DNA of 64,000 bases, taken from assembly GCA_021292105.1 (NCBI GenBank), contig CM037873.1, forward strand, positions 9,897,489 to 9,961,488, in the 5' to 3' direction. This document shows, piece after piece, positions 30,301 to 61,400 of the stretch; position 1 is the first letter of the stretch, and each line of letters starts with the position of its first letter. The position numbers and the translations under genes are program-made. The notes under the pieces are model-generated. The model saw only the letters and a list, made by a program, of their open reading frames with translations. It made no database searches and was not told where the DNA came from. The stretch comes from Anadara kagoshimensis (taxonomy: Eukaryota > Mollusca > Bivalvia > Arcoida > Arcidae).

Positions 30301-33300
30301 CCACAACGTGTGAAATAAACATAGCTCATTTTCTAAAATTTTGCCGATTTGAATCATTGAATTGCCTAATGCCTATCACGATATTTGATATTTACGTTTT
30401 TTTACGCATCAGTTATACGACATTATATTTCTTTCTTTCTTGATTTCAGGACTGGTAAGACTCCAAGAACTAATCAAATATTTAAAAGACAATGACCCGC
30501 CTATATTAATCAAGAAAATGAGGCGACTTCGTGATGTAACAAATGCCCATGAAGAACTGAGATATCTGGACAAGAGTACTGGTGACGAAGAAACAAAAAA
30601 TATACTACTAGATCTAGATTCCGAGTCCTCTTATTATACCATATTACGGCAGGTATGTGTCATAAAGTATGTTTGGATTAGTATTAATTCTCTATAAAAT
30701 GATATTTTAGCCATATTCCTAATCTTCTCGAGAGCTATTTTCAATAAGTACATCTACGTACACCGACTATTTACAAAATACCGAAAAATTGACGTCACAA
30801 CAGTGCTATGTTGATGTGTTAAGTATTTGTGCATTTTATGAATAAAATTTGTGTTTAATTTCTGCTTTATAAATTTTTCCGCGATAGAAAAATAAAATGG
30901 CATTATCCATTATGTAAAATTCTTCCTGTGAGATACAACATTGTGCACCAAGGTCCTCGAGCAGCGTGTACATATGTTAATTTTTTCTTCATCTAGTTCG
31001 ATTGCGTTCACAGATCAACAATCATCACCCGACTTGTGTATGCGAGCACGAGTTAAGTTTGTGGTGCACAAAGTGCGTTAATATTTTATCCACATAGATT
31101 GGTTAAAATGTCAAAATTCATTGAAATTAATCATATACTTGTACACGGTGTTATATTTCAATATAAGTTAAGTAGCATATAATTATCTGAACAAGTACTG
31201 TAGATCAGTTTTGTTTAAGAAGTGATTGCTTATGTTCAAACAACATATGACATCTATCTACTCGCTACTGATTATTTTCATCTTATGTTATATATAAAGA
31301 CAGCATACATAAAGTGATCTTAATTTGCTCTGAAGGAATACATCAAGGAAATAAAAGAATTTGCGCTAGCTGAGATTTGTATGTGATTTTTTGGTTAAAG
31401 TGATTAAATTTCCCATGGTGAGAACAATTTAACACTAAATATGGCACTTTGTACCGGGAAATCAGATTGTTCTTCTAGGAATTATTTATCATGCCAATTA
31501 TACGCGTAATCGGCTGGTAATTAATAGCTGTTTACACATGTGTTCCTATATCTCGAGATAAAATCGATATGGATGCGATATTTATCATTCACAAATAAGA
31601 CAAGACCAATCCTCTACAACAAGACTTCTACGTTATCGTTACAGCTCTACCAGGAATACACACAAATGTTGTGTAATTGGCGAGTGATTTACCGATTATG
31701 TAACCGTAATTTGATTTACTCTTGTTTCAAAGTTATTTATCATGATTTGTAAATTTGGTAAATGCTGTTTTCATTTCTTAATATTAATTCATTTTTTTTC
31801 AGATTCGTGAAGTCGGAATGAACAAGTATGGATACAAGTATCTTTTAGCAACTCTGGTTAGTTTGTACATTAAACAGATATTGAGAATATTTGGCATTAA
31901 CTGCACGTCTAATAATGTAATCTATAATGCACGTGTTTGTTATTGTCTGTCTCTTGGAGATGTTTATCCAATGTATAATGAAGAATTATAGTCAACAATT
32001 CGTTCTATAAGAAAACTTCTAGATGCACATAACCTTTCCATTGAAACGGAATTATCTGGACAAAATAAAAAATAATGTACACAATGTATCTGAGTGATGT
32101 ATCATTGTCCAGACGTTCAATGACGTTTCTCCAATACAAAAACTAAATACCAATAATCCTGATATACAAGCTACAAGTAAACTTTATATACTAGTAATTC
32201 AATTAAAAATGAATACTGCCTATTATTAACCATTTTTAACCATCAAGTTGTCAATTGATTATTTTTATTCAGTCCTGGTTGTGTTGGGTATTGTCAAGTG
32301 TATGTTTCTCAGTTCTTAAAATTGTGTCTGTTTTTTTACACCCTTAGCAGCGACATACACTTATACCTAAGTGATTCTTGTATATAACATTATTGACACA
32401 GCTTTAATATTGCTGGCATGCAGAACAGAACCGGTTCATTCATGCTATATAATTTGTGTGTATTCAAATTTTAGGATTTTATTAATTTGGACCTGGAAAA
32501 GTTTAAACATGGCGGCGTTAATATAACTGGTTTTCAAGTATTGGACAATGATTCAAAAATGGTCAAAACCTTTAAAACAGGATGGGAAAGTTTGTTGTCT
32601 AAAATCTGGTATGGAGCGGGATCGGACAGACTGCAGGTTTGTATGTCTATAAAATTAAGCATAATGATTAGTTTGTTCATGAGAAACACTATGATTTTAA
32701 GTGTCTCATCAATAGTTTAACTATATGCACCTATTTGAATTAACGACTTGATAAAATTAAAAGTAAGATTTATAAAAGGTATATGAAAGTATGATATATC
32801 GGAGAACAGAGTGTAATGTTGTAACATTGATACAGTAAAACCTGCTTAATTGTCTCTAAATAGAGACAAATAGAGACACATCAGTTAAACAGGACCAGCG
32901 TTTAAGAACAACTTGCTTCAATGGCTCAAATTAGAACCAAACAATACACATAATAAAGACTTGGAAAATCTTAGTTCTACTGTTCGGTCTTCATATACAG
33001 GTTTGCAATTAAAAGGGTAGCTATACTTTTTAAACATATACATTTAAAAGTATGCCATTTATTGCTTACGCTTCTTGTGGAATTGAAAGCTAAAATGTAA
33101 GGCTACTTTTCAAATTTTACTAGATTTGGTCTGTAATTGCTGTCTCATTATTTTTTTATTATTTACTTTCCATAAAATTTTCAGAATTTATACATATCTC
33201 AATTTTCCATTATTAAGGTTGACGCAGCACTTGCTTCTGATGCAGTTGATGTAATAGTGAATGCTATAGATCAGATGTTAGCAAATAATACATCCATATT

Positions 33301-36300
33301 AAAAACTACATTCCGTAGAGGCGACGTGTATAACTACAACCGCACCCGAGGTATTCCGTGTTCAGAGAATATACCGTGGATGCATGGTCAAGAACTGATC
33401 AAACAAATAAAGCAAGTATGTTAAAATAAAAACTGTGGTATACTTTATTGCGGTATTAAGATACACGTATACAAAAGCAAAAAATGCATGTACTCTAGAT
33501 CTATTTCTTTTCCGTCCCCGAAAATCAATCTACATCATGTTTCAATTTGTAAAAAATAAATACCTTTGGTTTTGTTTCTTATTGGGACATTTTGGATTAA
33601 TTGACCTTAAAAATGTGTATCGGTATGTTTGTTCACATTTTGTAGAAAAAGTAATTAGTTAAAAGAGTTATTAATCACAATAATGTAAATGCTCACAACT
33701 TTCCATTTATTAAGAGTGATTTCTCATGTGCGTAATAGGATTAATGTCGCTGCCAATATGTTAATCAAATTGTCATCAGCTATATGTAATCAAAAACAAA
33801 CTAATCCATGTCCAATTCATAATCCTGAAGCAAAGTAAAAACTTTGGAGCTGACAAGTTACGTTAGACACGTGAACTTCCACCAGGGAAGTGAGGCCGGG
33901 TGCTCCGGAAGGGTAAGCACCTCCTGTTTAGCTAGCTACACCCGCCACGTGTGTAATCAAAATTATGTGAAAGGAACATGGAACTATGAGACGTCAAATA
34001 TGTAAATAAGATAATGAGTAACTAGCTTCTTTTAAGGCCCAATCTGACTGGTTTATAAAAGTTAAAATATAATAAAGTTGTAAATAAATCAAAAACTAAG
34101 ATCAAAAGTTTCAAATTACGACCATCTAGTGGTGTAAAATTAATAACAGATTTAGTAATAATTACAATCACTAGAGGTGGTATCCCTGCTAGTGGTCTAA
34201 GCGTACCCAAGAATACACGTACCACTAACCCTGGTCGCAATACATAGTATTGCCAGGTAAACATTGTTTATAAAAAATATCTGTTTCTTTTAAATTTCCT
34301 AAAAATAGCTGTGGTTAATCGTTCCAAATATTGACCTGGTTGACCTGGTTAGTTAAAATACACTTCGGTCCTTCTTTTTTCTCATTTCAACTTTTTTAAA
34401 AATTCGGATTTCCACAAATTTGGTCCGAGCACTACTACTGATGAGGAATATTATACCGAAGCGACCGTCTAGTGCTGCTCAATTAAAACATGTTTAGTAA
34501 TAGTTACAATATATTATTATATATTATTTTTCTGTTTTCAGTCAGAACTAGATGGATTGACAGGAAAGTTAATATTTAATCAAACCGGGTTCCGAACGAA
34601 CTACACATTAGAAGTTTTAAGTGTTGGACTAAACTACGGCCCTTTTAAGGTAAAGATATTCTTAAGCTATTCATAAGATATTCATTTACAATGTGTTCCG
34701 TGTGATATAAATGTCTATACAATAGCATTTTTTAAGAATTATGTAGGTCAACTGTTATTGGCTACGTTTGAGCAATTTTTTTTATGTTGTCCATCTCCTC
34801 GCCACCGCCCGCCAGAATAGTTATGAGAGTGTTTTGGCAGATCCTGGTGAAACACTTGAACTTTACCGTTAACTGTGAGTCAAGTTTGGCCTTTGGCCGT
34901 TTGACCTTTTAATTTTAATATTCAAGCAGACACATCCATTGTGTAATTTGTGGGCTATGTAAAGTTATTTGTAAGAACAGATGATAGTAATAGTTAGTAC
35001 CAGGTCCCGGTTTCAAAATCATTCCATAGCCAAGATTTAAATTTAGCAAATTTTGGTAATCTCTTTTTGGAACTAAAGATGAAATTTTTTGTTTGTTAAA
35101 ACTAAATGCAAATCTTTTAATCGAGAAATTAAGACACTCTAACTTCCTGAATATCTTGAAAATTAACAAAATACTGAAGGTTTGAAATTTTGAAAGATTT
35201 AAGTTAAAGATCATCAAAAAAATGTTGGAGTGTTTGATAGATAACATATTTGTTGTGTTTGGTAATATAGTTTTTCAGCAAACAATCGGTATACCAATGG
35301 GTACAAACTGTGCACCATTGCTTGCTGATTTGTTTCTTTATTCCTATGAAGCAGAATTTATGCAGAACCTTGTTAAATCTGAAGAGAAGACTGTCGCCAA
35401 ATCATTCAACTCAACATACAGATATATAGATGACGTTCTATCTCTTAACAATCCTAAATTTGGAGACTATGTAAATGCCATCTATCGAAGTGAGCTTGAA
35501 ATAAAAGACACGACTGATTCCTCAAGTTCTGCTTCATATTTAGACTTATACCTGAATTATGACGCACGAGAAAGGCTACATTTGAAACTTTATGACAAAC
35601 GTGATGACTTCAATTTTTCTATTGTCAACTTTCCTTTTTATGCAGCAATATACCTGCTTCTCCTGCTTATGGTGTATTTGTTTCCCAATTGATACGCTAT
35701 GGTAGAGCTTGTTCCCACAACGGGCCTTTGTACAACGAAGTAGCTGCTTGCAAATAAATTGTTGACTCAGGGATATTGCAAGCCTAGGCTTATCAAGGCC
35801 CTCACAAATTATTATGGCCGTCATCACAGTATTGTTGATAAGTTTGATGTCTCTGTGTCCAGGGTAGCCCTGGATATTTTTGACGTCTCATAGTCCCTTT
35901 TACACAATTTATAAACCAGTCAGATTGGGCTTTAAAAGAAGCTAGTTACTCATTATCTTATTTACATATTTGACGTGTCATAGTTCCATGTTCCTTTCAC
36001 ATAGTTTTGATTACAACGTGGCGGGTGTAGCTAGCTAAACAGTAGGTGATTACCCTTCCAGAGCATCCAACCTCACTTCACTGGTAGAAGTTCACGTGTC
36101 TAACCTAATTTGTCAGCTCCAAAGTTTTTACGTTGCTTCTGGATTGTGATTCAGACATGGATTAATATGTTTGTTTTTGACTAAGGAATGATTGTGAAAC
36201 CGGTCCCATGTGGCTATGGTAATCAAACATGTGGTTTTAACTTAATGACACAGTCTATTGGACTGATCTAATATTCAAGTCAAAGATCAAGCAGCCAGGT

Positions 36301-39300
36301 CAAAATTGACGCACTATATACACATTGCTGTATATGTTATTGTGTTCATGTTGCAACAATAGACCAACACGTGCTGGGACCACTGTCAGGTTACACTTCC
36401 AAGGACTATGGTACTATAGGCAAACCCTTTACAAGACAAATGATCTATAAATACACACATATTTTACAAATAATGAATCACGAACGCTTGAATCTTGAAA
36501 ATTTCATCATGACTGACTAGATTAGCATAACCAAACAAACCAAAGATTTTAAGATAGATATATTTGGTGTTTTTAAGCTCATGTTTCAGAACCCTTTCTT
36601 CCTCTTATATTTTAAACTTGGAACATAATTTCCATTTTTAAAATTATATTTATCGCAAGGAAGAATTGTAAATGCATACATTGAGAGTATAAAATATATA
36701 AAATCATTATTTATTACAGTGACCGTTGAACCTTTGAAATCCTTCAACTCTAACCAGTTTCTTTAAACCACTTGTCTTTATCTGCAGATGATTTTCAGTG
36801 TAATCTAATACAATTTACTCTTTCTCTTGTTCAAGCTTGGGCAATGGGCCCCTTGGAAGGGATTCAATATCTCTGGTGACGGTGGAAATGTTGTAGAGAC
36901 GAAGATTACCACGAAGAAAATAATAGTTACAAGCATACTGGTAAATATGTTTATCTAACATTAGACTTGTTTTTCTATCCGATTTTACGAAATACAAGTT
37001 TTGTCGAACGTGTATGATACAGAATCTTATATCATCACATTGTGGTGATACAGCATTGGCGGTAGAGTACACGTGCACTTTTAGTCGGATTTCTCATTGT
37101 GACGTCATTGGTGAATCTCTCATTTGTCAAATGGAAATAATGACGTCATTACTACAGAACATAATGTCATAACATAGTACAGTGGTTTGCTGTGGTAAAA
37201 TGTATTTTTTCACATAAAGTATTGTTTTTTATTATTTCAAATAACCTAATTGGAAATGTTGGTTGAAAATATCATATACACAGTGTGTATGTACAACCTT
37301 TTGTATCAGGTCTCGTCCTTCGTAGCTGTATCACTACTCGTCGCGCAAGCGCAACTCGTGGTGATACGGCTGCGAAAAAAGGACTCGACCTGATACTGAG
37401 GGTTGTACATACACACTGTGTATATAATATGTATGTATTACTTACAATAGTATTATAACATTGTGTAATTAAGTGTACAGTAAAACATCTGTATAACCCG
37501 AATAAATCTTTATGCAGCAAACCAAAGAAAGCAACATAAAGTTAGGTTTACAAACATCACTATTTTTATCTAATACATATTTTATAGTTTATTATGGTAA
37601 CAATGTCCAAGTCATTATATATCCCATTTAATTTCAACTCTACTTTTTAGAACTACAGTAGCTTTCATTAACATGTCTTTTGTTATTACATGTCAAAGTC
37701 ATCTGCAAAAGTGCATGTGATTGCCGCCATCCAAAGTATATCACAAGTGGATGTCTCAAAAAATCTTAATATGCTTTATTATGTTTTAGGAAGAACCCTT
37801 TCTTTTTGACAGAAATAAGGGTGGAGTGGCAAATTATGAGGGAAATGACAGATATGAGGGTAAGTTGTTAAAATAGAAAGATAAGACACCATGCTACTGC
37901 GTTAACTACACAAAATGATAACTGCAAATGAACTTAAGCATTGGGTACCATTAATAACTGCGTGCAACTTCGTCTGGATTTTAAACAAAATACCATGTTT
38001 TGTATGCTGTGTGTTGCCTCGAAGCATGGTCCTGGCTAGTACATTTTACTCAGCTTTAAGTTCCATATGAACGATTAATATGAAGAATAATGTGCAATGA
38101 GGCAATTATGTATAGTCACTATATTTTTGTATCTAAATATGGTATGAATCTCTAATGTCAAGTGCTTGGTTTCAGTTATGTTGTTTACTGAACAACTCAC
38201 ACAACACCTTATATAAGGCGACTAGAGTCATCAATACATTTGCCTGTGGTGATGCTTTAATGAGCGCACTTTGTAGAACCTATTAACCAATAATTTTTAA
38301 TAAACACAATAGACCCAAAGAAAAGAGAATCCATAAAAATGCAACTTCGGCTTCAATGCTTATTCTGCCATGTAGTATTCATTTATCAGTAATATTGACA
38401 ATACACGATGAACATGCTCATTAAAACCATTATTAATCCGTTCAAATGCATCAACTGGCATTGTGTTGTATATTTAAAGGGTTTTGTGCAGATTTGATAA
38501 AATTGGTAGCGGCAAAATGTGGTTTTGATTATACGATAGTTCCGAATAAGAAAAGTGTATACGGTACAAAAATCAGTAACAACACATGGAATGGTATGAT
38601 TGGTGAACTTCTAGAAGGGGTTTGTATCTTATAATATTAATATCTAAGTATTTTAATAACGTCACTAGAGTTGCAATTAAAATCACTGTCGTCAAAATTT
38701 GTTAGATGTTTAATTAATCGTCTAGATACGAGTTATCTTGTTTTTTGTTGATGTTGTGCTACAGATTTGATGTTGGTTGTAGCGGAACTATGTAAAAGAA
38801 GTACACTTATTATCAAATGTACTATAACAACATGTGCTCAAAGCTTTAAATCAAATGAAAATAAAAACAAAATTCCTAGTTTTCTAGCTTTTATCTTGTC
38901 TCAGATGACACATTGGTAATTCGTGTAACATTTAGTCGCTACTTTCAGTTTTAGTCTTTAACTAAATCAATTTTGTTTATATTAGTTTTTCTTACCGAAT
39001 AAATGAATTTCCGATAAATCGGTGATTTTTAAATGATTTGTTGTCTTTATCTGATAGAGTTCACAATTTGCACATCTTTTTACATTAGATTTCATCTGAT
39101 CGTAACTTTTATTTCGAAGTTATATTTTAATGATACACGTGGAGGGTAACGTTAGCTAAACAGACTGTGCTTACCTTTTTGGATCACCGGGTTTAACTTT
39201 CTTGTTGGAATTGTTGGAAGTTTATGTGTTTAACCAAATTGTTAGCTTCAAAATTTTAACATTGCTTTGGGATTGTGGTTTGGACATGAATTTGTATGTT

Positions 39301-42300
39301 TGTGATGTCACTATATATGGTTTGCTGTATTTATAGTTTTTTGTATTTATAATAACGATAATAAGTATCTTATCTCTTCTATTTACATTTATTTTCCTTC
39401 AGAATGCAACCATAGCTGTGGCGCCATTAACAATAACAAAAGACAGAGAAGAAGTAGTAGACTTTTCAAAACCATTTATGATGAGTGGAGTAAGCATTAT
39501 AATAAAGAAGCCTGATAAACAAAAACCTGGCGTCTTCTCCTTTATGAAGCCTTTTTCATTAACATTATGGATGTGTATTGTGATTGGTTATATAGTTGTT
39601 AGTATTGGAATGTTTTTGGTCAGTCGATTCAGTCCTGCAGAATGGAAGAAAGTAAAAATTGACGAAGAAACTGAATTTTCAAATAAATTTTCCTTAGCCA
39701 GTTCATTGTGGTTTGCAATGGGATCATTAATGCTACAAGGAAGCGATACATGTCCAAGGCAAGTATGTTATTTTGAACACATCTAACTATATTATCAAAC
39801 AAAACGCAAACTTAATTTTTTTGAAATATTGACATGATTTAGGGTATTATTTCTTAATTCTTGTTTGCGTTTTTCAAATCGAGCAAGTGGAAATCACCAG
39901 TTACGCCCAAATAGTTTCGTTGATTAAAAAACTATTACCATTAAGTTATAAAATAATATCAAAATTTCGTGTTTTACCCATTTGAATATTTAAGCAATAT
40001 ATAATATTTACATTATATACCCGTATTTCTTAGGTACATAAAATAACAGAAAGGTTTAACGTTTGTAACAACAAATTTATCTATATAAATACTACTGCTG
40101 ATTGAATGATAGTGAAAAAAATATGAAGCAAAAATAGTTCAAATATTTTTCTTAAACAGTATAATTGCAATATTTTACGTTACTTCAGTATAACGTTACT
40201 CCAATTAAAACTACATGGTATAGAAAACACAGTTATTTTATGTCATTACATATTACATTTATAGATTTTTGTCAATAAACATTGCAAAGTTGCATATTGC
40301 GACCTTAAACATTTATTTCAATAACGTGTTATTAAAAATATTTTCAGATCAGCAGCTGGGCGTATTATTGGTGGTACGTGGTGGTTTGCTGTTCTCATTG
40401 TCATATCATCATATACAGCTAATTTAGCTGCCTTTTTAACGATTGAAAAAATGGTTACAGCAATAGAGTCAGCGGACGATTTAGCAAAACAAACTGAAAT
40501 CAGTTATGGCACATTAGACTCTGGTTCAACACAGGACTTCTTTAAGGTATGAGCATTTATTTTTATTCAACGAGTTAAAAATTTTAGACGAAACAGTAAG
40601 ACATAATACGTTTTTTTTGCAATTGTCTTCTTTAATATAGAAGACAGAATTATGTAACTTAAATATGTATTGGCAAGAATGAACAAAATAAAAAACCACG
40701 AGATCACACAATTTAATTGAAAAATTAGAAAAAGACAAACATATATCGAGAACACTGATTTTAACATTTTCCGATTGGACATCATTATTACATTATTAAT
40801 ATTATCAATACAGATTCTGTTGTGTGAAATATAATTGTTTATAAACCATACGGCGTCTATTGCGATTTGAAAGTGGGGCCAGACATACAAAGGCATTGTC
40901 TTTTTGATGTAATCTCTATTAATAACTTATTTTGATTATTAGATATTGGCCAGTTTTACACGCTTTTTTCATTAAGGACAACATAATATAACAAGTATGT
41001 GTAGACATATATAATTGCATGTGTTCGTTTGAAGCGATTTACCCACTCATAACGTCATGTATTCATATAAAAATGCCAATTTACCACAATGAGTATTTTA
41101 TTTTTCCTTTTTTTATTTGAATTAGCATTCAAATGTGCCAACATATCAAACAATGTGGAATTTTATGTCTACAGCACATCCAGGAGTTTTTGCTAAAAGT
41201 GTTGAAGAAGGGGTCGCGCGAGTGAGGAGCGCAAAAGGAAAATATGCTTTTTTCTTAGAATCCGTTTATAATGAATATATAAATAATCAAGATCCTTGTG
41301 ATACAATGCAAGTTGGAGCTCCACTGAATTTAAAAGGATATGGTATAGCCAGTCCCAAAAACTCCGAATGGAGGTAACTATTTTTGAATGATAAGTATCG
41401 TGTGCATCGTGTAAAGGACACAATCAATCTTAATTGTAAAATCAAAAAATATGCTAACACAGTCTGCCTTTGTCTTTGTATGCTACATAGACAGGTCCAA
41501 ACGTGGTAAAACAATAAAAAACAATATTACCTATCCATGTCCTAATCACAATCCAGAAGCAAAGTAAAAACTTTGTAACTGACAAGTCAGGTTAGACACG
41601 TGAACTTCCACGATGGAAGTGATGCCGGGTGCTCCGTAAGGATAAGCACCGCCTGTTTCGCTAGCTACACCCGCCACGTGTGTAATCAAAACTGTATGAA
41701 AGGAACATGTAACTATGAAAAGTCAATTTTTATCCAGGACAATCCTGGACACTGAGACATCAAACGTATCAACAATATTCGACGATATTCCAATATTTGT
41801 GCAGATTTACGAGTTATTTCTAGTGACGGCATCTTAACAATGACTGTCGCGAACAATAGTGCGATGATTCTTTCAATCATAAAGTTATTTATTTCAATAG
41901 AGTTATTATCAGCATTTGAGTTTTTCAATATACCAACGTATTTACTTCAAAAGAGGAAGTCCGTAATGTCCAAATATCAAATACTACTAAAATGCTTAAA
42001 GAGATGGGCATTATAAAGTTAACGCAAAACTTATTAATTTATACTGTTTGAATAACCCATATTTAGCATCCACACGAATTTTAAAAGTCGATAGGTACAT
42101 GCAAAGCAGTTGAACTTTTGAAGTTTTGCTTATGCCTCTACATTAACTGTATATCTGTTGAAACTTACGGATTTCCATTTGTTTTATTTTGAACAGGGAT
42201 GAAATATCAATTGCAGTTTTACAATTAATAGAAGATGGTTCTTTAATAAAATTAAAAAAGACATGGTGGGTTGATAAGGGGGAATGTGGTGTACCAGGTT

Positions 42301-44608
42301 CTCATGGGGTAAGTGTCGTTAGGTTTAATGTAATTTTTTCGCTGGTGAAAGTATATGCATGACACTAATTAAAACATATCCTTCATATGATGGAGAATAA
42401 TCTAGTTTGTATGTGCACCATCAGAAGAGCTTCCATTGCTTTGCTAACGCATACATGTTTAATGCTTGCATTTAATAGTTTAAGCGTGACATACCAGTTT
42501 TAATAAGTAATTTTGAGATTATGTTATCGTTCATTACAAGAGACCTTAAAGACTATCCAGCTCATATCACAGATACGTAAATAAAAATTAAAATGTGTAA
42601 GAGGTCATGCGTAAATCTTCTGAAAGAACATGGCTTGTCAGCGTCTTACAATTTTCATAGGTTTAATATTAAAAGTTCAAAAAGGCCAGCCTTGTTAATA
42701 TGTGTATTTCTATCTATATAACTACTTTCTGTATCCGCATGCATAGCCAGTTGTAGATGACATAACACTTTTTATATTTTAATGTTGTCAACATTTTAAA
42801 AGTTCATTTCAACCTCAAATTGAAATTCTTGTATATACAGTGCATGACTGAGACATGCTCTTTGGACGCTCTGAAGTTCAAGCGTTTTTATACAATTGTA
42901 TATTTGTTTTCAGGGTTCTAAAAAGAAATCTTTATCTTTAAGTAACGTCGCAGGAGTATTTTTTATTTTAATTGGTGGATTAGTGCTGGCAATAATAGTT
43001 GGGGTGTCAGATTTTTTAAGATCAAAGTCTCGGAGTAAACTTGGGGTAAGCATTTCTTTGCTACCTATACAGGTATAATATACACAATTTCTATTAATGG
43101 ATAATTGATGTGTGTATTTATAAGGAAGCGATACACGATCATCTCTTGGGCAAATTATCTAAACTGCCTTGTTAGTATCATAAAAATAATTATTTTAATT
43201 ATAGCGATATACATGGAGAAAAATTGTAAGCTACCAAGTCAAGATTCTTTCACTTATATCAAGACAGTACATGCAATGGTCTATTGATTCCATGTTTGCA
43301 AAAATAAATTTTTAAAGCAAATTTAAATATTTTGCAATAAATCGGACAGTTAGAGGCTCTCGAATGGGACTATAACCACATCGTTGACATTTTCATTACC
43401 CGGTCAAATAAGAAATTCTATAACCAGTGTTTGGTAATTAATTGTGTTTTAGTTATTGTATCGGGTATTGAATAGTACATGTTTTAGTTCATTTAAAATA
43501 TTCGTTCTATTATGGAATTTAACTATTGTAGGGATTTGCCTTAATTGGAACGAATTCAGCTATACCAATAATGGCAGATCAATCTGACCACAGTTCTGTA
43601 AATGGACCGAAGCGAGAAAATGATTTTAATGAAGTAAAGGTTAGTTCAATTTTTTCTTATTTATCTGCAATTATTCGATACACTCTTTTTTCAAATTCAT
43701 TGCATTTTTAATGTTTAAACGTTCCTCGACAAAAAGTCAGAAAATGAATTATTGTATAAACGTTTAAGATTTATATCGAATCAGTGTTTTTAATCTGGGT
43801 ATGGATTATCACAGTATTAAAATAAAATCCTTATGAATGTTATCATGGTTGTATCAGTTGAGGAGTTATGAATATATCGGTAACTTTTAAACCTAACCTT
43901 AATTTTAATTGCAAAATTCATGAAATATTGTTATTTCAACAGCTATTTCCCCATGCTAGGTACGCCAACCAAACTCAAACGGAATTAAAGAATGTTTTTT
44001 TTCACTTACATTGCTAAACTTTTTATAAATTTTCATTTCTGGAGGCTTCTGATCTACCTATTTCACATGAATTGATAAATATTTTCGAATTAGGATCTGC
44101 CTGAGTGGAACTCGAAAAAAGAATATGAGAAACGCTATGACCCGTAGTTATACTCGTCTGATCAATTGGTCTCGAAGGTCACCGGACGTCAAATAGAAAC
44201 ATGAGAGTTAAACATAAAATCCCGGCATTGTTGATATAATACATTGTCAGTAGCATTATTTTACTTTTGAACTGTATTCAAATATGTTTCGTGTTTGTGA
44301 GAGCATATTAATAACTATCCAAGATGCAAAAAACAACAGCTTGCAAATGTTGACTGAAATTCAATTGAGCGTTCGAGACTGGGGCATTTCCGAATCTATA
44401 TTGTTTGGATAATGTTTTATTTTAAGTTGAAAATTGAAATAAAATATGCGCGGATAAAATATTCAAATATAGGTCCACACCCCTTATGAAGTTCTTATGG
44501 CTTGTGATATGTATTTGTAATTTTGTATTTTTTCAGTATTTTTCTTATCCGTTACCACCACCAAAATACAGCAATGTTGTGGATCAAAATGGACACACAG
44601 ATGTTTGA
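18453..44608 (+). CDS. GRIA-like: AMPA-type ionotropic glutamate receptor subunit (16 visible exons, 5' end missing)
   Basis: Glutamate-gated cation channel subunit of fast excitatory synapses. Joined exons: 18453-18698, 30450-30652, 31803-31856, 32475-32636, 33218-33415, 34542-34649, 36836-36940, 37790-37859, 38480-38619, 39403-39758, 40348-40546, 41126-41373, 42197-42308, 42914-43045, 43532-43639, 44537-44608. All junctions keep frame. Order: ATD (exons 1-6), LBD S1 (7-10), M1, pore loop and M2 (10), M3 (11), S2 (11-13), M4 (14), cytoplasmic tail (15-16). Family hallmarks seen: APLTIT with the glutamate-binding Arg (DREEV), SYTANLAAF in M3, LDSGST, the Glu in FLES, and the ATD cysteine pair. 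AMPA rather than kainate type is inferred from the pore (RIIGGTWWF) and KPGVFSF. Odd points: Leu at the Q/R site, a GC-AG intron after exon 10, one flip/flop-position exon only. The signal peptide and about 70 N-terminal residues are not found. Confidence 0.95.
18807..18829. repeat. T-run
   Basis: 23 consecutive T, 110 bases after receptor exon 1. The text before and after it (tggaattgtc, aaaaattcgacttcc) resembles the hammerhead-bearing repeat, so it is probably a relic of that element. Confidence 0.7.
20648..20775 (+). mobile_element. Penelope-like tail fragment
   Basis: RT-sense copy: agctaaacgggaggttctt, ccagagcacctaacctgact and cacgtgtttgacc. Confidence 0.6.
21624..21666. repeat. (CA)n microsatellite
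   Basis: About 21 AC dinucleotides without interruption. Confidence 0.98.
21955..22175 (-). repeat. Left member of a diverged inverted pair
   Basis: Read on the - strand: TGACGTCACAAGTGTGATCG, caggtgcaaaattggaggtt and tatcgaaaatcg...acttacactttaa. Similar text on the + strand at 25691-25890. They share the 16-mer cacacttgtgacgtca, which contains the CRE palindrome TGACGTCA (22168-22175). Confidence 0.45.
24085..24340. repeat. Probable dispersed repeat fragment
   Basis: 'ggggtatatgggaatcaccctgtccatctgtcc' resembles the ends of common bivalve repeats. Followed by a T-poor, ORF-free stretch with a G-run at 24303. Confidence 0.35.
25166..25244 (+). repeat. tRNA-like sequence, probably a SINE head
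   Basis: Ends GACCGAA and TTTGGTC pair as an acceptor stem. B box GGTTCGAGTC (25224-25233) is perfect and an A-box-like tagttacgacg is present. The anticodon arm has a 10-base loop, so a functional tRNA is unlikely. A T-rich run follows. Confidence 0.5.
25691..25890 (+). repeat. Right member of a diverged inverted pair
   Basis: Reads cacttgtgacgtcacgagtc, caggtgtgcaaaaggggtta and gatatcg...acttacactttaa. CRE palindrome at 25699-25706. Interval to the left member is 3.5 kb, with no transposase recognised. Confidence 0.45.
26664..26787. mobile_element. 124-bp double-palindrome element, copy 1
   Basis: Two perfect 57-bp inverted arms (26665-26721 and 26730-26786) around 8 bases, aatatatt. Each arm is nearly self-complementary (gtcatatacc...ggtatatgac). 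Ends TGTCATATACC/GGTATATGACA, flanked by ATAG on both sides (26660-26663, 26788-26791), a likely 4-bp target duplication. No coding capacity. Confidence 0.85.
27270..27325. repeat. (TTTA)n microsatellite
   Basis: About 13 TTTA tetranucleotides, perfect until the last unit. Confidence 0.97.
29131..29160. repeat. (TAATTG)n short repeat
   Basis: Five units of attgta. Confidence 0.9.
30005..30115 (-). mobile_element. Penelope-like tail fragment
   Basis: Contains taccagggaagtaggaccgg and ttccggaagggttag, ending in ctagctacacc. It lies 335 bp before receptor exon 2. Confidence 0.65.
30450..30652 (+). CDS. GRIA-like: Glutamate receptor, visible exon 2 (ATD)
   Basis: Tttcag acceptor, cag|gtatgt donor. 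It completes the Gly codon split from the previous exon and encodes [18 protein letters not shown] to SSYYTILRQ. This is the poorly conserved ATD lobe stretch, placed by phase, length and the leading GL..LQ.L motif. It follows an 11.75-kb intron, the longest seen in the gene. Confidence 0.88.
31803..31856 (+). CDS. GRIA-like: Glutamate receptor, visible exon 3 (ATD, 18 codons)
   Basis: A 54-bp exon in phase 0 at both ends, encoding [18 protein letters not shown]. It aligns with the AMPA segment 'IGKHVKGYHYIIANLGF', a short exon also in other AMPA genes. Acceptor ttttttcag, donor ctg|gttagt. Confidence 0.88.
32475..32636 (+). CDS. GRIA-like: Glutamate receptor, visible exon 4 (ATD)
   Basis: Encodes [20 protein letters not shown] then [13 protein letters not shown], matching the family 'GGANVSGFQIVD.D...V..F'. 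It contains an N-glycosylation sequon (NIT). Phase 0 to phase 0; donor cag|gtttgt. Confidence 0.92.
33218..33415 (+). CDS. GRIA-like: Glutamate receptor, visible exon 5 (ATD, second disulfide Cys)
   Basis: Encodes [20 protein letters not shown] and then [17 protein letters not shown]. The second part matches '[22 protein letters not shown]', and its Cys pairs with the Cys of visible exon 1 in the family. Sequons NNT and NRT are present. Acceptor ttaag, donor caa|gtatgt. Confidence 0.93.
33790..34065 (-). mobile_element. Penelope-like tail copy, inverted relative to 35886-36183
   Basis: About 275 bp, roughly 92% identical by eye to the reverse complement of 35905-36183, including the additional 58-base segment. 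In the receptor intron before exon 6. Confidence 0.8.
34428..34476 (+). ncRNA. Hammerhead ribozyme-like motif
   Basis: Stem I halves AGCACTA (34428-34434) and TAGTGCT (34470-34476) pair over 7 bases. Core CTGATGA is at 34438-34444, with stem II GGAAT/ATACC, GAA at 34458-34460 and the cleavage triplet GTC at 34467-34469. Degenerate points: three extra bases between stem I and the core, GAAG instead of GAAA, and a very short stem III. Penelope-like elements are known to carry such motifs. Probably a relic, 65 bp before receptor exon 6. Confidence 0.5.
34542..34649 (+). CDS. GRIA-like: Glutamate receptor, visible exon 6 (end of ATD)
   Basis: 36 codons: [20 protein letters not shown], then YTLEVLSVG, matching '[26 protein letters not shown]'. 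Sequons NQT and NYT are present. The exon lies between two inverted Penelope-tail copies (33790-34065 and 35886-36183), which could pair in the pre-mRNA. Phase 0 at both ends, so skipping it would keep frame. Confidence 0.93.
35200..35885 (+). pseudogene. 5'-truncated, frameshifted Penelope-like reverse transcriptase
   Basis: The open part (35222-35692) has [20 protein letters not shown] (RT motif B), [12 protein letters not shown] (catalytic Y-I-D-D), [20 protein letters not shown] and [17 protein letters not shown]. Homology continues out of frame as [15 protein letters not shown] near 35670-35715 and [18 protein letters not shown] near 35805-35865, so at least two frame breaks are present. 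Nothing upstream of motif A is recognised: a 5'-truncated dead copy. The assignment to Penelope-like elements rests on recalled similarity to bivalve RT proteins; no GIY-YIG domain is visible. It lies in the intron between receptor exons 6 and 7 and runs straight into the tail repeat at 35886-36183. Confidence 0.8.
35886..36183 (+). mobile_element. Penelope-like element 3' tail joined to RT
   Basis: Downstream continuation of the RT fragment, from tgacgtctcatag to ggacatgg...gtttgtttttga. It is the reference for the dispersed tail family in this window and reads in the RT sense. Two small hairpins are visible: ACTTCC/GGAAGT and GGTGCT/AGCACC. It shares an extra segment of about 58 bases (gtaactagcttc...) with the inverted copy at 33790-34065. 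Confidence 0.75.
36836..36940 (+). CDS. GRIA-like: Glutamate receptor, visible exon 7 (ATD-LBD linker, start of S1)
   Basis: Encodes [20 protein letters not shown] and then KKIIVTSIL. The first part matches the family 'IGYWSEVDKMV' and the second is the first LBD beta strand ('TVVVTTILE'). Acceptor ttcaag, donor ctg|gtaaat; phase 0. Confidence 0.92.
37275..37424. mobile_element. 150-bp foldback element, probable MITE
   Basis: Perfect 24-base ends (37275-37298 and 37401-37424) continue as an imperfect stem through gtatcaggtc/gacctgatac and tgtatcac/gtgatacg to a loop cgcgcaagcgc. Flanked by TA-rich sequence, consistent with TA target duplication of Tc1/mariner type, which is inference. In the receptor intron between exons 7 and 8. 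Confidence 0.75.
37790..37859 (+). CDS. GRIA-like: Glutamate receptor, visible exon 8 (LBD S1)
   Basis: Encodes EEPFLFDRN and then YEGNDRYEG, matching 'ESPYVMMKKN...LEGNERYEGYCVDL'. It carries the Tyr of RYEG that lines the glutamate pocket in AMPA receptors. Ends in phase 1 at gagg|gtaagt. Confidence 0.93.
38480..38619 (+). CDS. GRIA-like: Glutamate receptor, visible exon 9 (LBD S1)
   Basis: Encodes [20 protein letters not shown] and ends [13 protein letters not shown]. This matches '[22 protein letters not shown]' and 'WNGMVGELVYG'. Donor ggg|gtttgt, phase 0. Confidence 0.95.
39133..39305 (+). mobile_element. Penelope-like tail fragment
   Basis: RT-sense copy ending ggattgtggtttggacatga and ttgtatgtttgtgatg, about 100 bp before receptor exon 10. 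Confidence 0.65.
39403..39758 (+). CDS. GRIA-like: Glutamate receptor, visible exon 10 (S1, M1, pore loop; GC donor)
   Basis: The largest exon, 356 bp. In order: [20 protein letters not shown] (binding Pro, Thr and Arg conserved), [14 protein letters not shown]1 around [20 protein letters not shown], and the pore segment [19 protein letters not shown]. At the Q/R position AMPA receptors have Gln (edited to Arg in GluA2); here it is Leu, codon CTA. The exon ends ccaag|gcaagt: only this GC donor joins in frame to the next exon. The GT four bases downstream would shift frame. Confidence 0.95.
40348..40546 (+). CDS. GRIA-like: Glutamate receptor, visible exon 11 (M2 end, M3, S2 start)
   Basis: Completes the split Arg codon and encodes [20 protein letters not shown], then [15 protein letters not shown], the near-invariant M3 gate. 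It continues with [20 protein letters not shown] and STQDFFK, with the Ser-Thr pair that contacts glutamate. Acceptor ttttcag, donor aag|gtatga. Confidence 0.96.
41126..41373 (+). CDS. GRIA-like: Glutamate receptor, visible exon 12 (S2)
   Basis: Encodes [44 protein letters not shown] and [15 protein letters not shown]. It carries the pocket Glu (FLES) and the first Cys (PCDTM) of the conserved LBD disulfide. Ends in phase 2 at tggag|gtaact. Confidence 0.96.
41516..41790 (-). mobile_element. Penelope-like tail copy
   Basis: Long copy: gacacgtgaacttccacg, gctagctacacccgccacg, then the RT-proximal part atccaggacaatcctggaca. In the receptor intron between exons 12 and 13. Confidence 0.75.
42197..42308 (+). 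CDS. GRIA-like: Glutamate receptor, visible exon 13 (flip/flop position)
   Basis: Encodes [20 protein letters not shown] and then [11 protein letters not shown]. The 112-bp exon has the same boundaries as the vertebrate flip/flop cassette, but I see no second copy in the neighbouring introns. It carries the second disulfide Cys (KGECG). Acceptor gaacag, donor ggg|gtaagt. Confidence 0.96.
42914..43045 (+). CDS. GRIA-like: Glutamate receptor, visible exon 14 (M4)
   Basis: Encodes [20 protein letters not shown] then [17 protein letters not shown]. This matches AMPA '[29 protein letters not shown]'. It is the fourth membrane segment followed by basic juxtamembrane residues. Phase 0 at both ends. 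Confidence 0.96.
43532..43639 (+). CDS. GRIA-like: Glutamate receptor, visible exon 15 (cytoplasmic tail)
   Basis: 36 codons: [20 protein letters not shown] then [16 protein letters not shown]. It is not conserved with vertebrate tails, and is accepted on the ttgtag acceptor, aag|gttagt donor, phase 0 continuity and position between M4 and the last exon. Confidence 0.8.
44537..44608 (+). CDS. GRIA-like: Glutamate receptor, visible exon 16 (C terminus and stop)
   Basis: Acceptor ttttttcag; encodes [20 protein letters not shown] and ends TDV then TGA. The final T-D-V fits a class I PDZ ligand (Ser/Thr-x-hydrophobic), and PPKY fits a PPxY WW-domain ligand. Both are inferred from pattern. A poly(A) signal follows 324 bases after the stop. 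Confidence 0.88.
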   Translation, partial: YFSYPLPPPKYSNVVDQNGHTDV

Positions 44609-52400: not shown

Positions 52401-55400
52401 GTCCTAATCCCAAAGATTATATTCTTAGTTACACAGACGGACGGAATGCTCAACGCATCAACAAAATTACACAAAATACATTTTCTTGTTCCCAAATATA
52501 TGTATAAATATGTATCAGACAAAGCGCACACTAATGGTACAAAATCAGCTTATATTGAGATATGTTAACTTTGAAATCTTCAACGTGCACACATATACAT
52601 TAAATTATAGACGTCACTTAAATAAAAATTATTTTTCCAAGCTGAACCACGAGGATAAAGCATTGGTTATTATCACGAACGAACCTTTAAATTAATTTTA
52701 CATTGTGTTTACCTGGGTAGATATGTATCCCCCGAATTCATTTCTTTGTGTGGCCAGCCATCTCATAACCTGTATACCATTTTCAGTGTCTCGTCTCAGT
52801 GCATATGATAAGAGAACATATGCGGTGGTTTCAATATCAAGCGCTCTAGCTCGTCCTCCTGTTGGTCTAAAACGTAACATTGGCATGATCTCTGCCACTA
52901 ATTCGTCGGGCAATCTCCAATATTTCATACCTCCTAATCGAATTGACAATAAAGATACAATTCAAAATACATTCATTTCGTAATATCGCAATTATAAATA
53001 TAATTAAAATTTCTGTTTCTTATTATACAGTAGTATGTTAGGATCTCCTTTGGAATAAGACTTCAAAGCACAAGAACAGAAAATCGAACAAGAAACAATA
53101 CAAATCTACATGCTTTGGTTATATTGTTGATTTGTTGTTGAAAAATTCTAACAATTGAATTATAAGAAATGAAATTAATTATTCTTTTTATTATGGGGGT
53201 ATAAAAGAATTGGACAATTAGCACACGTAAAATAATTCCTATGATAAAACTATTTTTACAAACGTATTTACATACCTCTGGCAATAGCCAATCTTTCCAC
53301 TGATTGAAGTAGAGTATCCGCTAGTGGGTCACGAACCTGGGATAATACATACAACAAGATAGCTTGTTCGTATATATTTAGGTCTTGCAGCTCACCCTTT
53401 TTGATAAAGCTAACAGCTTTTGTAATAGCTTGGTCCACCTCTACAGCTAACTGAAAAATACATTACATATTTTACTTCATCAAAAGTTGAATGAACAATT
53501 TAAGCACAAATAATCATAACACGTGCCTCCCATATCTAAGGGAGTTTCATAAGTTTTACTATTTTGACTGTTTCAAATTTTGAAGATGTGTTCCGTTGTT
53601 AGCGAATATTTACTTTTAAAACTCATATTTACCTCTCTGCTGTAACTATTTCTTTGTCTTGCTTCAATAAGAGATATCGCACAGTATGATGTAAGGGATT
53701 TGTCTCCATGTGATGAACCACCCTGTAAAAAGACAAAACACTGATATAGATAGATAGATAGATAACAAAGTTCCACGAGACCAATGTCTCGTTTTCATCT
53801 GTCAAATGTCTTCTGTAGCAAACAAGATGATATATTTGTCTGTTTTCAAATACACACACTGCATCTTTGTAGTTCTCTGTCAACTGTATACTAAATAGTT
53901 CCTGATTAGATAACCGTTTAATATTAGACTGGGTTCATGTTATGGGATAATTGATAGTGAAAATTGGATTTGGAAGGTCCAAATTAATTATGACAGAACA
54001 AGTTGCCCTGAAAGAATGAAAAAGACAAATATTTTATTTGTTTACACATTATTTTAAATCAGCGGTTATTGTTATATATTAACATATTTGCATGTGTTTT
54101 GTAATAAAAAATACACGACTGTATATTACCGTAATGAATGCTCTTCGAATGACGGTTCCCTTATCGATAAAAGAACCATCATTTTGTTGATGGTCCAGTA
54201 TAAATCGGACAGCTTCTGTTGTAACATTCATGTCCACACTGATAAAGTTAGTGGCCTGTGAAAACAGCTTCACCACATATGCCGTAAGCCTGTAGCAAAC
54301 AGAAAAGCATCTGTAACTGTATACTGAAAATGAAACCCTCACAATGCTGATTCTTAATGTTAAAACAAATTCAGTTTTTACTCGTGTAACCGCCACTACA
54401 TTCGGCTGCTGACATTACCGCCTGAAGCAAAATGCGACTGCTCCATGCAAGGGAATAGAAAAGTTTTGCTCACTATTTTACTTTCAGATAGCATTGGATT
54501 AAGATGCAACACATATGTTTGAACTGACAGAAAGCTTGAAATCGAGCGGGAATCTTTTTCTTGTGGTAAGAAATATTGACTTATTCTATGTCAAGTTAGG
54601 GAGTAAGTAGCCATAGTACAATAGTTCGACTGTTTGTTTGTAATGTTGAACGTGTTTGTACCTTATTGCAGTTTTGTTGCGTTTTAAACAATTTATGGTT
54701 ACAATCGAATGACTTTGCAAGAAATAGATACACATGTTGTTACAAAAAGGTAATTACGTCAATACATCTTATTGTAGATACGTATCAATCTGAGTTAAAA
54801 CATCTTTTTTTCAAAGTAGTTTCCCTATACACTATAATAATAGCATTCAACGTTATTACATCGACGCTCGATTATTCAATGCCAGCAACCAGTAACTCAA
54901 GTACAATATGTCAACAAATTAACTTATAAGTATAGCATTTGACCCGTGTGAGTTATTACATGTACTTGGGTAGAAAAATTAGAATTACCATGACATAAAG
55001 AATAAGGTCTGTTCTTGGGTTATTCTGCAAAGAGTCCCATAGAATATATCAATGTCATTACATTTGACATTATAAATACTAGTATTACAAACAAAAAATT
55101 AACCTTATAACACATTCGCACAGAACGTACATGTATTAAGTGAACATAAACGAACCAAAATCTTGATACTGCTTTAAAGGACCATTTTCAAATTCTAGAG
55201 AAATTTTCCAAATTAATACTACAGTTAGAGATATTGGTAATGTCATATACCATTTTTTTAATTTAATCATAAAATACATTCAAAAAATGGTTTATGACAA
55301 TATTGTCATATACCATTTTTTGAATGTATTTTATGATTAAATTCAAAAAATGGTATATGACAGTAACATCATGCTGACCTAATAAATGAATATCATACAG

Positions 55401-58400
55401 GAGATGAATAAGATTTAATTTGCTTGAATTGGTTAGTTAGACCCTTGTTACTTCATATAGTATCAATCAAATACAAACATACTAATCCATGTCCGAAACA
55501 CAATCCGTAACAAAGTATAAACTTTGGAACTGACAAGTTAGGTTAGACACTTGAACTTCCACCAGGGAAGTTAAGCCGGTTGCTCCGGAATGGTAAGCAC
55601 CTCCTGTTTAGCTAGCTACACCCGCCATGTGTGTGATCAAAATTTTGTGAAAGGAACATGGAACTATGAGACGTCAAATATATCCAGGACAATCCTGGGC
55701 ACAGAGACATCAAACTTATCAACAATACTATGATGACGGCCATAAAACTTTTTGAGGGCCTTGATAAGCCTAGGCTTGCAATATCACCAAGTTAAAATGT
55801 TAGTTTAACGTATGGATTTATGCTCTCAAAACTCTTCGATAAAGCTAGAAACTACAATGACATTTTTCTTTAAACATTTTGCATGTAATGTAAGATATAT
55901 ACCAAGTACTGCCAGCTTTATCATCGTTCCCGAAAGCACTAAAAGATCCATCGTCTCGTCTGTATACTAACTCCATTTGGTAACCTAAAGCAAAACGAGC
56001 ATATAATTCCCAACAACAATTAGGTACATTGTCATGTGGTGGTTTCAGTTGATATACAACGTATAACATGTGACAGTTATAATCTTGTATATTTATGTCT
56101 TCTCCAATCCTATTTGGAGTTTAAAGTTCCTGCAAAATCAAATGTTTCAACATACTGAAACTTAATTAGATAACTTCAGCTTTACCAAACCAAAATGACA
56201 CTCAATTTTATGAAACCAGCACTAAGTACGTCTTATTCAACCTCGTCACTGATGTCTTTTTAACGATTTATAAATTCAATCTTTACAGCAATGGCTTATA
56301 TCCAAACATTTAAATTCTTATCTTTTTAAACTCAGCGTCTTTTTCAGTGCCGTATATTTCTAATTTTATTTGAATTTTTTTCTCTGAAATAGGATGATAT
56401 TGCTAAAGGTAATAATTCCTGCAGTGAAGCACATTCTCATAAAACATGCAAATAGTGTAGTTCTCATACGAGAAAAATGACCTAGAAAAACGGCATTCGA
56501 CACTAGATACTGATGGCAAAGGCAAGCCAGGATAACCAAATCACACTGTCAAGTAAACGCATGAAGCACAACAACCAGAAATACACATAGGTAAAACCTG
56601 GATGAAATGAACATGATTGTTGCAAAATCGGGAGGTTTTGTTCCTTCATGCCACCGCATTATGTCGCCGTGGTGATGAAGAGGTTTAAGTAGTTTAAGTA
56701 GAAAGTCGTTGCTTGCGATTTAAACACGAAAGGGTCAGGAAGTCACTTCAGTAGCTTAAACCTTACACCAACAGATATAACTTATATCATATAGTGTCAC
56801 TGTATTATATAAAGGATCTTTCATGAGTGTTTATGTATTATTGAATATATTGAACTATTTAATACAACGAGCCTCGTTTTGCAACGTTTGTCGATATAAA
56901 AAGACTCATTTCCTCTATATAAGAACAGACCTGATTTATAGAATAACACATAAAACACGCAAATCAATACAAGCGCCCAAAAAAGTAAAACCACAATTTT
57001 TGTTAATACTTATATCAATATTATAGTTACTTTTTCCATAGAATAAATATAAGAAATAATTATTTTTTAACTATTTACCTTCTTTGTATGATGTTAAGAT
57101 ATCTATGGTGTTAAGATATCTTAATACTAAATACCTACGTATTCCAATGAACCAGTTGACGCCATAGCGCACACAATTCGAAATGTGTATGGTTATTAAT
57201 GTCGCGAAAACTGCATTACACATGTGAATTATGACATTAGATATTGGTTACGTGGTCTTTTAATAATGATTAAATAATATTATATATGATACATTATACC
57301 TGCAGTTATTTGTTCGACAGCCTGGGACTGTATAGGTGGTGACAACCGCATTGTTCTCTGTAAATATTGTGCGGCATACATAACTGTACCTAAACCAATA
57401 AGTATCTGTTCGCCACAACCAAATGGCATCTGGAGCATTCTCTCAATACCAGTAACCGTAGGGCCTAATAGGTCACCTGTAATAAGACACTAATCAGAAT
57501 AAATACAGGTACAAAACATAACAGAAAATGTAAGAATGTGTCCAAATGGACATTTCTAAACAGGAAATGAAACGCATTTAGAAAATTAATTGCTATTTAC
57601 TTGTGAATTCAAAAAAATCAATTTACAAATACGAAAGCAAAACTACATTTTTTCAAGTAGTACGAATCTCTAAATCAGCCGGTGTAGCAGCAGCGATTAA
57701 TTGATGATACTTGCCAACGGCATATATCTGTGCAAATGTAGATCCAGATACAGCATTAGGGGGAAATCTAATTGGCACGTTTGTTGTAAACCGTTCCCCT
57801 CGTTGTAAATCTCTTAAAACTGGTATGTTAAATCTTTGTTGCACTCCATCTGGCTAAACCAATAAATCAAAAAAAATTGTTCATAAAAACATTGTTTCGA
57901 AAATTCACAAAACGAATAAAATATTATTTTGCAGTGTCGGTATCACTCTTACCAAACAAGAAGAGATGTTTCATAAATGTAATATTTATAACAGTCTTTC
58001 ATATGACGCTTCTCTGTGTTTCAACAGACTTCCTTATGCATATTTCATGTGCAAATAAAACGTCTCAAAACACATCAACGTACGCTATCATATATTTTCT
58101 ATATATTAAAATCATAATGGAGAACATAAAATATAATTTGTATTGCATAGATATCTAATCGCTACCTGTCCTTATTTAATCATGCTATAATATCATTGTA
58201 CAAATGATGAACACCGTTGTGGTATACTTGTATGGAGACGCCATACTATAGGGAAATGGGGCATAGAGAATACGTATGAATGTATATACTAGTGTGTACT
58301 GACAACAAACCATATTATTTATATTTATCTGAAATACTTTAAGACCCACTTATATCGAGAATTATAAGGTCTATTTGAATTTACCTGAACCAGTATGGTT

Positions 58401-61400
58401 TTATGAACGGAGTCATAAACGTCTGATGACCGTCCGCTAACTCTTACATATACATTACCCATCTTCTGAGGGATTATGGGAAAATAAACTGAATCAGCAT
58501 CACCTTTCTTCAGAAATAGCTTCTGAAAAACGAAAGAAATTTCAAAATACATGTATTACAGAAAGATCTGGAAAAATGAAACAACCGACTTTTACATCAA
58601 ATGACCAGGATAAATATTTCCTCTGATACTTAAGGGTCAGGTTGTTCAAAGTTCCATTAACTTACTTTACTAAATGTTTAATGAAAATTTTAATTGGCAA
58701 TGTTATTAATACTAAAAATATTTAATATTAAAAACAATTTTGAATGTAACTGCTATTACTAGTATTTAATCAAAATTGTGTACATTAATTTTTGATCTGA
58801 AATTACAGAAATATTGCCAAAAACACATGATACAAAGTTAACCTAACAGACTGAATACGCTAACGGAACTTTGAACAACCGAGCCCAGATGAAAGTAAGT
58901 GTAATACCTTGCAGTTAATTATGATAAAGCTAATGCATATATTTTTACATCTCAATCTGTGTTAACTTTTTATACATCGCAGTCAACTCAATTAAAGTTC
59001 GAATTCTGATTCTACTGTGATATAAGGTCTTTGGTCCCAAAACATGCGTTAAGACCACACGGTACCTGAGGTCCCCGAGTGATTATAAAGTTCCGTGTTG
59101 TTTGGAAGGACACTGATTATAAGGATACAGCTGCTATTGCTCAGTTATTACGATTGCATTTCGTGATATCAAACCTTTGTGTATACTGTTGTATCAACTT
59201 TCTGTGTAAACGACTCTATAGCCACACTGTAGTCCTTTGATCTCTCCAATGTTATAACTGTCTACAAAATAGAACAAAAAATAAACATCCAAATAAATAA
59301 ATAAACCAACAAGTAATAAATCGCACCATATTTCGCAATTGGACACACTTGGTAAAATAACAAACAGACGTTCAGACACTATAACCTGAATATTCATATT
59401 GCCTGTATTCTGTTTCTTAGACTTCAAAAGACATTATTTGATTTTTACTTGATACAAAGTCTACATAATTTCTTATCGTTCGTTAAGGTCATAAATAATT
59501 AAGAGAGGCCGTAAACAAAGTAAAATCCAGGAAAAGTGTGGATCTACTAAACATCCCAGTGAATTTCTCAGTGAATCAATAACAAACATACTAATCAATG
59601 TCCAAATCACAACCCAGAAGCAAAGTAAACACTTTGGAACTGACAAGTTATGTTAGACACGTGAACTTCCACCAGAGAAAAGAGGTCGGGTGCTCCAGAA
59701 GGGTAAGCACCTCCTGTTTAGCTAGCTACACCCGCCATGTGTGTGATCAAAATTGCGTGAAAGAAACATGGAACTATGGGACGTCAAATATATCCAGGAC
59801 ATTCCTGGACACAGAGACATCAAACATATCAACAATACTGTGATGACGGCCATAAAACGTGAGGGTCTTGATAAGCCTATGCTTGCAATATTCCTGAGTA
59901 TGACATACAAGGTATCTGTATATTGTCAGGTTCTTAAATATTTTGTCACACGTTGGGGTGAAGCTAGCTAAACAGAAGATGCTTACCCTTTCAAAACACC
60001 CGCCATCACTTTCGTTATGGAAAGTCACGTTTTAAAATTAAATTGTCTGTCTTAAAGTGTTCCACTTTGTTTTTTTTTTTTTTTTTTTTTTGGGGGGGGG
60101 GGGTTGTGATTTGGACATGGGTTGGTATGTTTCTTTTTGATTTGATAAGTCATGATAAAATGTAGTAGGCTTAATAGATATCTTTTAGGCATTCGTCTAG
60201 TCAGACACCAGTACACTGTCGGTACATTTAAGTCAATGCGACGGAAAATGACCAGATTAGCAGTATTATAGGCAAATAAATAAATGTACTGTTAACGTAT
60301 TAGGAAATCATCAGGATTAATTACTTACCCATAAAACCATAAAAGAACAATTATACAGCTACGTAACAACATATTTATAGGTCGGTCTATTCCGATAGGG
60401 CTAAGTACATACATATTACAACCCATTAAACAGACTATTTTCGGAAGTCTGGGACTAAATATAAATACTATAAACTATGACTTACATTAATATCTTTGCC
60501 TAAATAATTATACGCGTCTACTTGAAGCATTAAAACTTCACCATAAATTGCTGTTGTTGGTAAAATTATTTTCAGGAAAAACTGCATGGAAACTGTAATC
60601 TATATTAAAAATGTAACGTTAAATTAGAATTGACGACAATTGTCTGTGGCTAACAGCATGTACTTTGATAAAGCCAATATACTCAAGGATAAAAAACAAT
60701 AAACTGACGACAAAGACAAACAAGACAGTACGATTAAAGATTTATGCAATAGTATCTCAATACAGAAAGAACAATGTTCCTATCATCCACTTCTTTATAT
60801 TTTAATTCAAGGAAAACAAATAGCTACTGACACCATATAAGGTAACATACTGAGACGTAGTTAACAAATGATGATAATTTTTTAAGTGAAGAACATTTAT
60901 CCATGTTGCAAATAAAGAGAATCAGAAAAAGGTGTAGCCGTATTTTAATCATATATTTTTTATCGTAGGAGCATAATTCAAAACTACAATATTTAGTTTT
61001 AGATCTGCAGAAGAAAAGACATAGATTAGTGTGTTTGTTTTTCATGTATATCAAAACCAATCCCCAAAATCCTCTGTAACTATACTTATAGTTGTTACGT
61101 AATTAAGATATGACTGATGAATTTTAACTTCTTTTTACTACATTACTTTCTTTAAGAATGGCTAGTTACTTGGAATCCAAACAAAATGTCTCTCCTAATC
61201 AATGATTAAAATTGATAAATGCATGTTACATAAGGATCCTCAAATTGAATCATCTTACGTAATGACTCTCATCGATCTTAAATCTTACATTAAGGTTAAA
61301 TTAAGGACACATAAATCAAGCTAATTGGAATGATAAAGTGGCCGCCTTATTGATTTTTCACCATCACAATTAACTTACTTCTATCATAAAATACACTAAC

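Follow-up and report, generated by a model that had tools for sequence, protein, structure and literature searches.

We found that an AMPA-type glutamate receptor gene in the window (the whole 64-kb stretch of DNA that was analysed, C17:9897489-9961488; positions are those of the window unless prefixed by C17) has leucine at the Q/R site, which is, to our knowledge, the best-known single-residue switch of glutamate-receptor ion permeation. Judged from its sequence, this gene (g6) encodes a real and preserved Leu-type subunit and has a Leu-type sister gene (g1). The Q/R codon reads CTA at 39733-39735 (+), within an 11-residue pore loop at 39715-39747 (+), and is followed by CAA (39736-39738, the +1 Gln), GGA, AGC and GAT (39745-39747, the +4 Asp). 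When the protein is aligned with solved GluA2, the pore loop is gap-free, the Leu falls on the Q/R position, and the +1 Gln, the +2 Gly and the +4 Asp are retained. The translation and this alignment bear out the preliminary description, which had claimed a Leu at the Q/R site of an AMPA-type receptor with the next Gln, the Gly, the Asp and M3 kept; its coordinates (39742-39758) need correction, as they start at a Ser codon about 7-9 bases past the Leu codon. The remark that CTA is one base from CAA is true of the codon in the window, but it does not describe a simple change, because the second copy of g6 (L014) and g1 have TTA, which is two changes off CAA. Under the genetic code, neither CTA nor TTA can become a Gln codon through A-to-I editing, as had been stated for the former.

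An alternative exon could in principle supply the Gln. We found no second pore exon within the 64-kb window, either by a motif search in six frames or by a permissive tblastn search with three pore loops. Two further matches of the relaxed motif [LFM]M[QRN].G, at 7151 (+) and 25508 (-), have surroundings that do not resemble a pore loop, and the top tblastn pore-loop match in the window outside the known exon has an E value of 0.068.

We placed 14 exons of g6, from 18453 to 43045 (+). Thirteen of them join in a single stop-free frame, with AG acceptors and with GT donors except for one GC donor, and the remaining one, which encodes part of the amino-terminal domain (ATD), is 108 bases long, a length that keeps the frame. 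Such a spliced open frame with its splice sites is therefore not due to chance. The ATD exons, identified by Pfam and splicing, lie at 18453-18698 (earlier 5' exons were not located), 30450-30652, 31803-31856, 32475-32636 and 33218-33415, followed by the 108-base exon at 34542-34649 (Pfam, its end read from the sequence). The linker and the start of S1 (36836-36940) and two further S1 exons (37790-37859 and 38480-38619) were placed by splicing. The sequence and the splicing then give the exon with the end of S1, M1 and the M2 pore loop (39403-39758, followed by the GC donor) and that with M3, its motif SYTANLAAF and the start of S2 (40348-40546). The next S2 exon carries the equivalents of Glu705 and Tyr732 (41126-41373, alignment and splicing), and the sequence and the splicing again give the end of S2 (42197-42308, which we take to be the flip/flop-equivalent position) and M4 (42914-43045); all are on the plus strand. 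The first ATD exons, the signal peptide and the C-terminal tail were not located in our search for g6 exons. Pfam matches to ANF_receptor (1.8e-31), Lig_chan-Glu_bd (4.6e-37) and Lig_chan (4.7e-46) on the spliced frame give the architecture of ATD, ligand-binding domain, M1, M2 loop, M3 and M4.

The GC donor at 39759-39764 reads AAG/GCAAGT in the window and GAG/GCAAGT in L014, and g1 to g5 have GT at this position. A GT lies 4 bases past the GC donor of g6 (CAA/GTATGT), and its use would shift the frame before M3. Inside an intron of g6, at 35186-35692, there is a reverse-transcriptase-like stretch (RVT_1 at 19.7 bits, below the curated cut-off of 29.6), presumably Penelope-like. Elsewhere in the window, a minisatellite at 2204-3749 (42-base unit, 36.8 copies, 97% matches) lies within long open frames on both strands, and parts of a thioester-containing (A2M/complement-like) protein are found at 52698-57489 (-), with TED_complement in 3 of the 4 minus-strand stretches tested. 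Copies of a roughly 200-base dispersed repeat lie at 33804-34001, 55485-55713 and 59598-59823, and all three match a single stretch in L014 (85.7-86.4%).

The assignment of g6 to the AMPA type is supported by protein matches and by the tree. The M1-S2 region matched 337 distinct PDB sequences at 1e-10 or better, and the best 60 of these 337 are all named Glutamate receptor 1, 2 or 4, GluA1, or plainly Glutamate receptor. In a phylogeny of 16 sequences (LG+G4, with one vertebrate AMPA and one vertebrate kainate receptor and without epsilon or Phi sequences), g6 does not belong to the kainate-type group (98.8/99), and support for the branching order among the AMPA-type lineages is weak (48/54).

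The ligand pocket is largely, if not entirely, that of GluA2. The SYTANLAAF gate motif is present in M3 (PDB alignment and motif search), and the equivalents of Pro478, Thr480, Arg485, Gly653, Ser654, Thr655, Glu705 and Tyr732 are kept. At GluA2 positions 686 (Thr) and 708 (Met), which we assume to be important for the ligand pocket, g6 has Val and Tyr. The glutamate pocket had been described as intact; this stands for the core contacts that we examined and fails at positions 686 and 708. GluA2 positions are numbered with Q586 as reference, following eLife 35774, and the solved construct is without five loop residues, which shifts the S1 labels by 5. In g1 (L009/L015), Asp is found at 705 and Phe at 732, together with Gly653 and Thr655, a pocket that mixes features tied to glutamate binding and to glycine/D-serine binding in passages of PMC12226733. 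The substitutions in the pockets of g6 and g1, and the long branch of g6 in the tree, would fit a subunit that works only in heteromers, conducts weakly or is altered in its response to agonists, the pore change being then part of a wider change of role. We regard this as rather unlikely, since g6 keeps the core glutamate contacts and SYTANLAAF and its two copies show no amino-acid change.

The gene belongs to a cluster that is present twice. We searched the genome (1.115 Gb, 36 contigs) with the peptide of the M1-M2 exon of g6 and matched 41 places, of which the twelve best correspond to two sets of six AMPA-type genes each on C17, at 7.50-7.92 and 9.50-9.94 Mb. The two sets have identical gene order and orientation and are offset by about 2.0 Mb. 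The pore loops are the same in both sets: GALMLQGSDSCPR in g1, GALMQQGSDIFPR in g2 and g5, GAFMQQGCDISPR in g3 and GAFMQQGCDISPK in g4, and g6 likewise has a single peptide in the two. Two of the six genes in each set (g1 and g6) thus read MLQGSD and the other four (g2 to g5) read MQQG, i.e., the Gln that is usual for AMPA receptors at the genomic Q/R site, though not strictly defining, is absent in g6 and g1 and present in g2 to g5. These four sister genes resemble g6 in being AMPA-type, on the same contig and with a pore exon that ends at the same codon (the place of g2 and g5 in the tree is weakly supported), and they differ from it by the Gln at the Q/R site in all four. Some of the remaining matched places were read as well. 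Two kainate-like genes on C9 also have Gln at the site. Three divergent iGluR-like genes (L002, L004 and L006), which match M1-S2 within a single open stretch, were aligned by eye; close to the Q/R position they show His (GSLLHSGTD), Arg (GTLLRGNLT) and Met (GTLLMRGTD), respectively.

Between the sets, the six gene pairs have gap-free DNA identities of 94.2-98.0% (the value for g6 includes some dispersed-repeat matches). The stretch adjoining g6 at 57280-57900 has a 95% copy at C17:7944073, and the doubling therefore exceeds the receptor genes; the doubled blocks span C17:7.50-7.95 Mb and 9.50-9.96 Mb. Pairs of iGluR matches with nearly equal scores also occur on C5, C6, C9 and C17. In a DNA comparison of three of these pairs, two (L004/L005 and L025/L026) could be aligned, at 95-96%, and one (L022/L023) could not. 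The two sets on C17 are likely to be uncollapsed haplotypes; they could also be a segmental duplication. Both copies of g6 keep Leu whichever origin of the sets holds.

The comparison of the copies indicates that the Leu is maintained. The codon is CTA in the window and TTA in L014 with the same peptide, so a base-call error does not explain it and Leu has been retained across a synonymous change; g1 has TTA in both copies. The copies of g6 differ at 21 synonymous and at 0 amino-acid positions (448 codons in 8 exons, pS of 0.073). For all six gene pairs (1761 codons, four exons each), we counted 50 synonymous and 0 amino-acid differences, of which g6 contributes 16, contained in its 21. The compared stretches came from protein matching to g6, and exon edges are therefore trimmed. 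An all-synonymous outcome without selection has a probability of about 9e-15, a rough value in which differences are treated as independent. The lack of amino-acid differences thus points to strong purifying selection. Given the two Leu codons, the Leu in g1 and this lack of amino-acid differences, we rejected an assembly error, a pseudogene and a recent point mutation. The same observations make it very improbable that the Leu is a sequencing error, a rare allele or the mark of a dying gene, for which we found no support, the doubled block indicating no more than the possible presence of two haplotypes in the assembly.

The presence of Leu in both g1 and g6, which are 62.1% identical and sit at opposite ends of the cluster, could reflect one origin or two. 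The best tree unites them in a single clade with and without the pore loop; the split of g1 and g6 from the rest has SH-aLRT/UFBoot values of 98.5/92, which become 96.1/77 when the pore loop is removed. The two genes also have in common the TTA codon, a Ser or Thr at +5 and a Cys at +6, where g2 to g5 have Ile at +5 and Ser or Phe at +6. Both the clade and these shared residues weigh against Leu having arisen twice, or having spread by gene conversion, a scenario that we consider fairly doubtful. In its favour, some alternative placements are not rejected. For the four alternatives, AU p values are 0.014, 0.045, 0.133 and 0.007 with the pore loop and 0.034, 0.127, 0.304 and 0.028 without it; the AU test thus leaves one of four unrejected in the former case and two of four in the latter, and the SH test rejects two of four and none, respectively. 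One old origin of Leu is the best reading of these trees, favoured and not proved.

We think it likely, on balance, that g6 is a genuine AMPA-type subunit of a Leu-type subfamily in which the Leu lowers Ca2+ permeability and probably polyamine block. The subfamily (g1 and g6) would have replaced the Gln of the Q/R site most likely before the two genes diverged, a change set in the DNA that A-to-I editing could not undo. The g6 protein may assemble into channels by itself or together with subunits of the Gln type. With Leu side chains all or half the way round the pore, amide groups that help to coordinate Ca2+ and spermine would then be missing, and Ca2+ permeability, and probably also voltage-dependent polyamine block, would fall below those of the Gln-type sisters. 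The retained +1 Gln and +4 Asp would keep cation conduction and some of the block.

The expected consequences are not equally firm. By analogy, a lower Ca2+ permeation is the most likely effect, because the change of Gln to Ser in human GluA2 lowers it according to passages of PMC12226733, where the spermine Kd rises from 5.4 to 36.2 uM and mutation of the +4 Asp largely abolishes block. How polyamine block would be affected is less certain. Leu could leave it intact, because in GluR6 mutants (Panchenko 1999, cited in PMC12226733) Gly lowers block and Phe keeps it strong, and because rectification persists in a GluR6 chimera given the pore of a plant receptor (same paper). The Phe mutant and the chimera, together with the Phe or Tyr that most plant receptors carry at this position (same passages) and the +4 Asp kept in g6, are also what one would expect if Leu were real and constrained with hardly any change in permeation, the +4 Asp and the pore backbone being dominant and Leu tolerated. 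That permeation and block in GluA2 are sensitive to the Q/R residue speaks against such tolerance, which we see as possible, if improbable.

In vertebrates, edited GluA2(R) acts as a dominant low-calcium, weakly rectifying partner. It is conceivable, if quite unlikely, that the Leu-type g1 and g6 mix with the Gln-type g2 to g5 in the same capacity, such that Ca2+ permeability is set by the genome. If this were true, gene choice rather than RNA editing would set the Ca2+ permeability of AMPA-type receptors in this lineage. The cluster, in which a preserved Leu-type pair is accompanied by Gln-type sisters, is a natural experiment on the role of the side chain, and also on the question if calcium entry is tuned in some animals through the choice of gene and not by editing.

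Our literature search revealed no named Leu-type AMPA receptor; it covered text outside figures, supplements and closed journals, and Figure 1-figure supplement 4 of eLife 35774 could already depict residues of this kind. In the parts of the oyster (PMC10642201) and Aplysia (PMC5225553) papers that we consulted, and in those of PMC7191990, no passage on the Q/R site was found. A pattern scan of a prokaryotic contig collection gave 41 matching stretches, none of which is a relative. AMPA receptors are described as expanded in molluscs and annelids in parts of eLife 35774 (PMC6307864). The same parts report, for newly described groups, an acidic +4 residue in 84 of 122 iGluRs and Gln at 586 in only a third, including most AKDFs, which passages of PMC12226733 hold to be perhaps the least variable receptors at the Q/R site.

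Compared with vertebrate GluA2 (62.4% identity over aligned columns), g6 has the same domain order, membrane segments, SYTANLAAF motif, +1 Gln, +4 Asp and core glutamate contacts, and differs by a genome-fixed Leu instead of Gln (or edited Arg) at the Q/R site, by Cys at +6, by Val at 686 and by Tyr at 708. A parallel in residue is found in the placozoan epsilon receptors GluE1, with Ser, Ala or Leu at the Q/R/N site, an acidic +4 residue being present in most placozoan subunits (passages of PMC12226733). Yet these belong to another iGluR class, and the characterised member carries Ser and takes glycine, not glutamate, as its agonist (PMC12226733, same passages). The residue of amphioxus GluE1 is disputed, being given as Phe in PMC12226733 and as Gln in eLife 35774, in the parts concerned. 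The Phi class of the AKDF subfamily, reported in parts of eLife 35774 (PMC6307864) only from cephalochordates, hemichordates and echinoderms, has Gln at 586 in no subunit; it resembles g6 in this respect and is a separate class, and the loss of Gln within AKDF therefore has a precedent, as far as these parts describe it. Residues other than Gln at the Q/R site are thus already known, including within AKDF, and the Leu-type AMPA pair is a variant of a known family.
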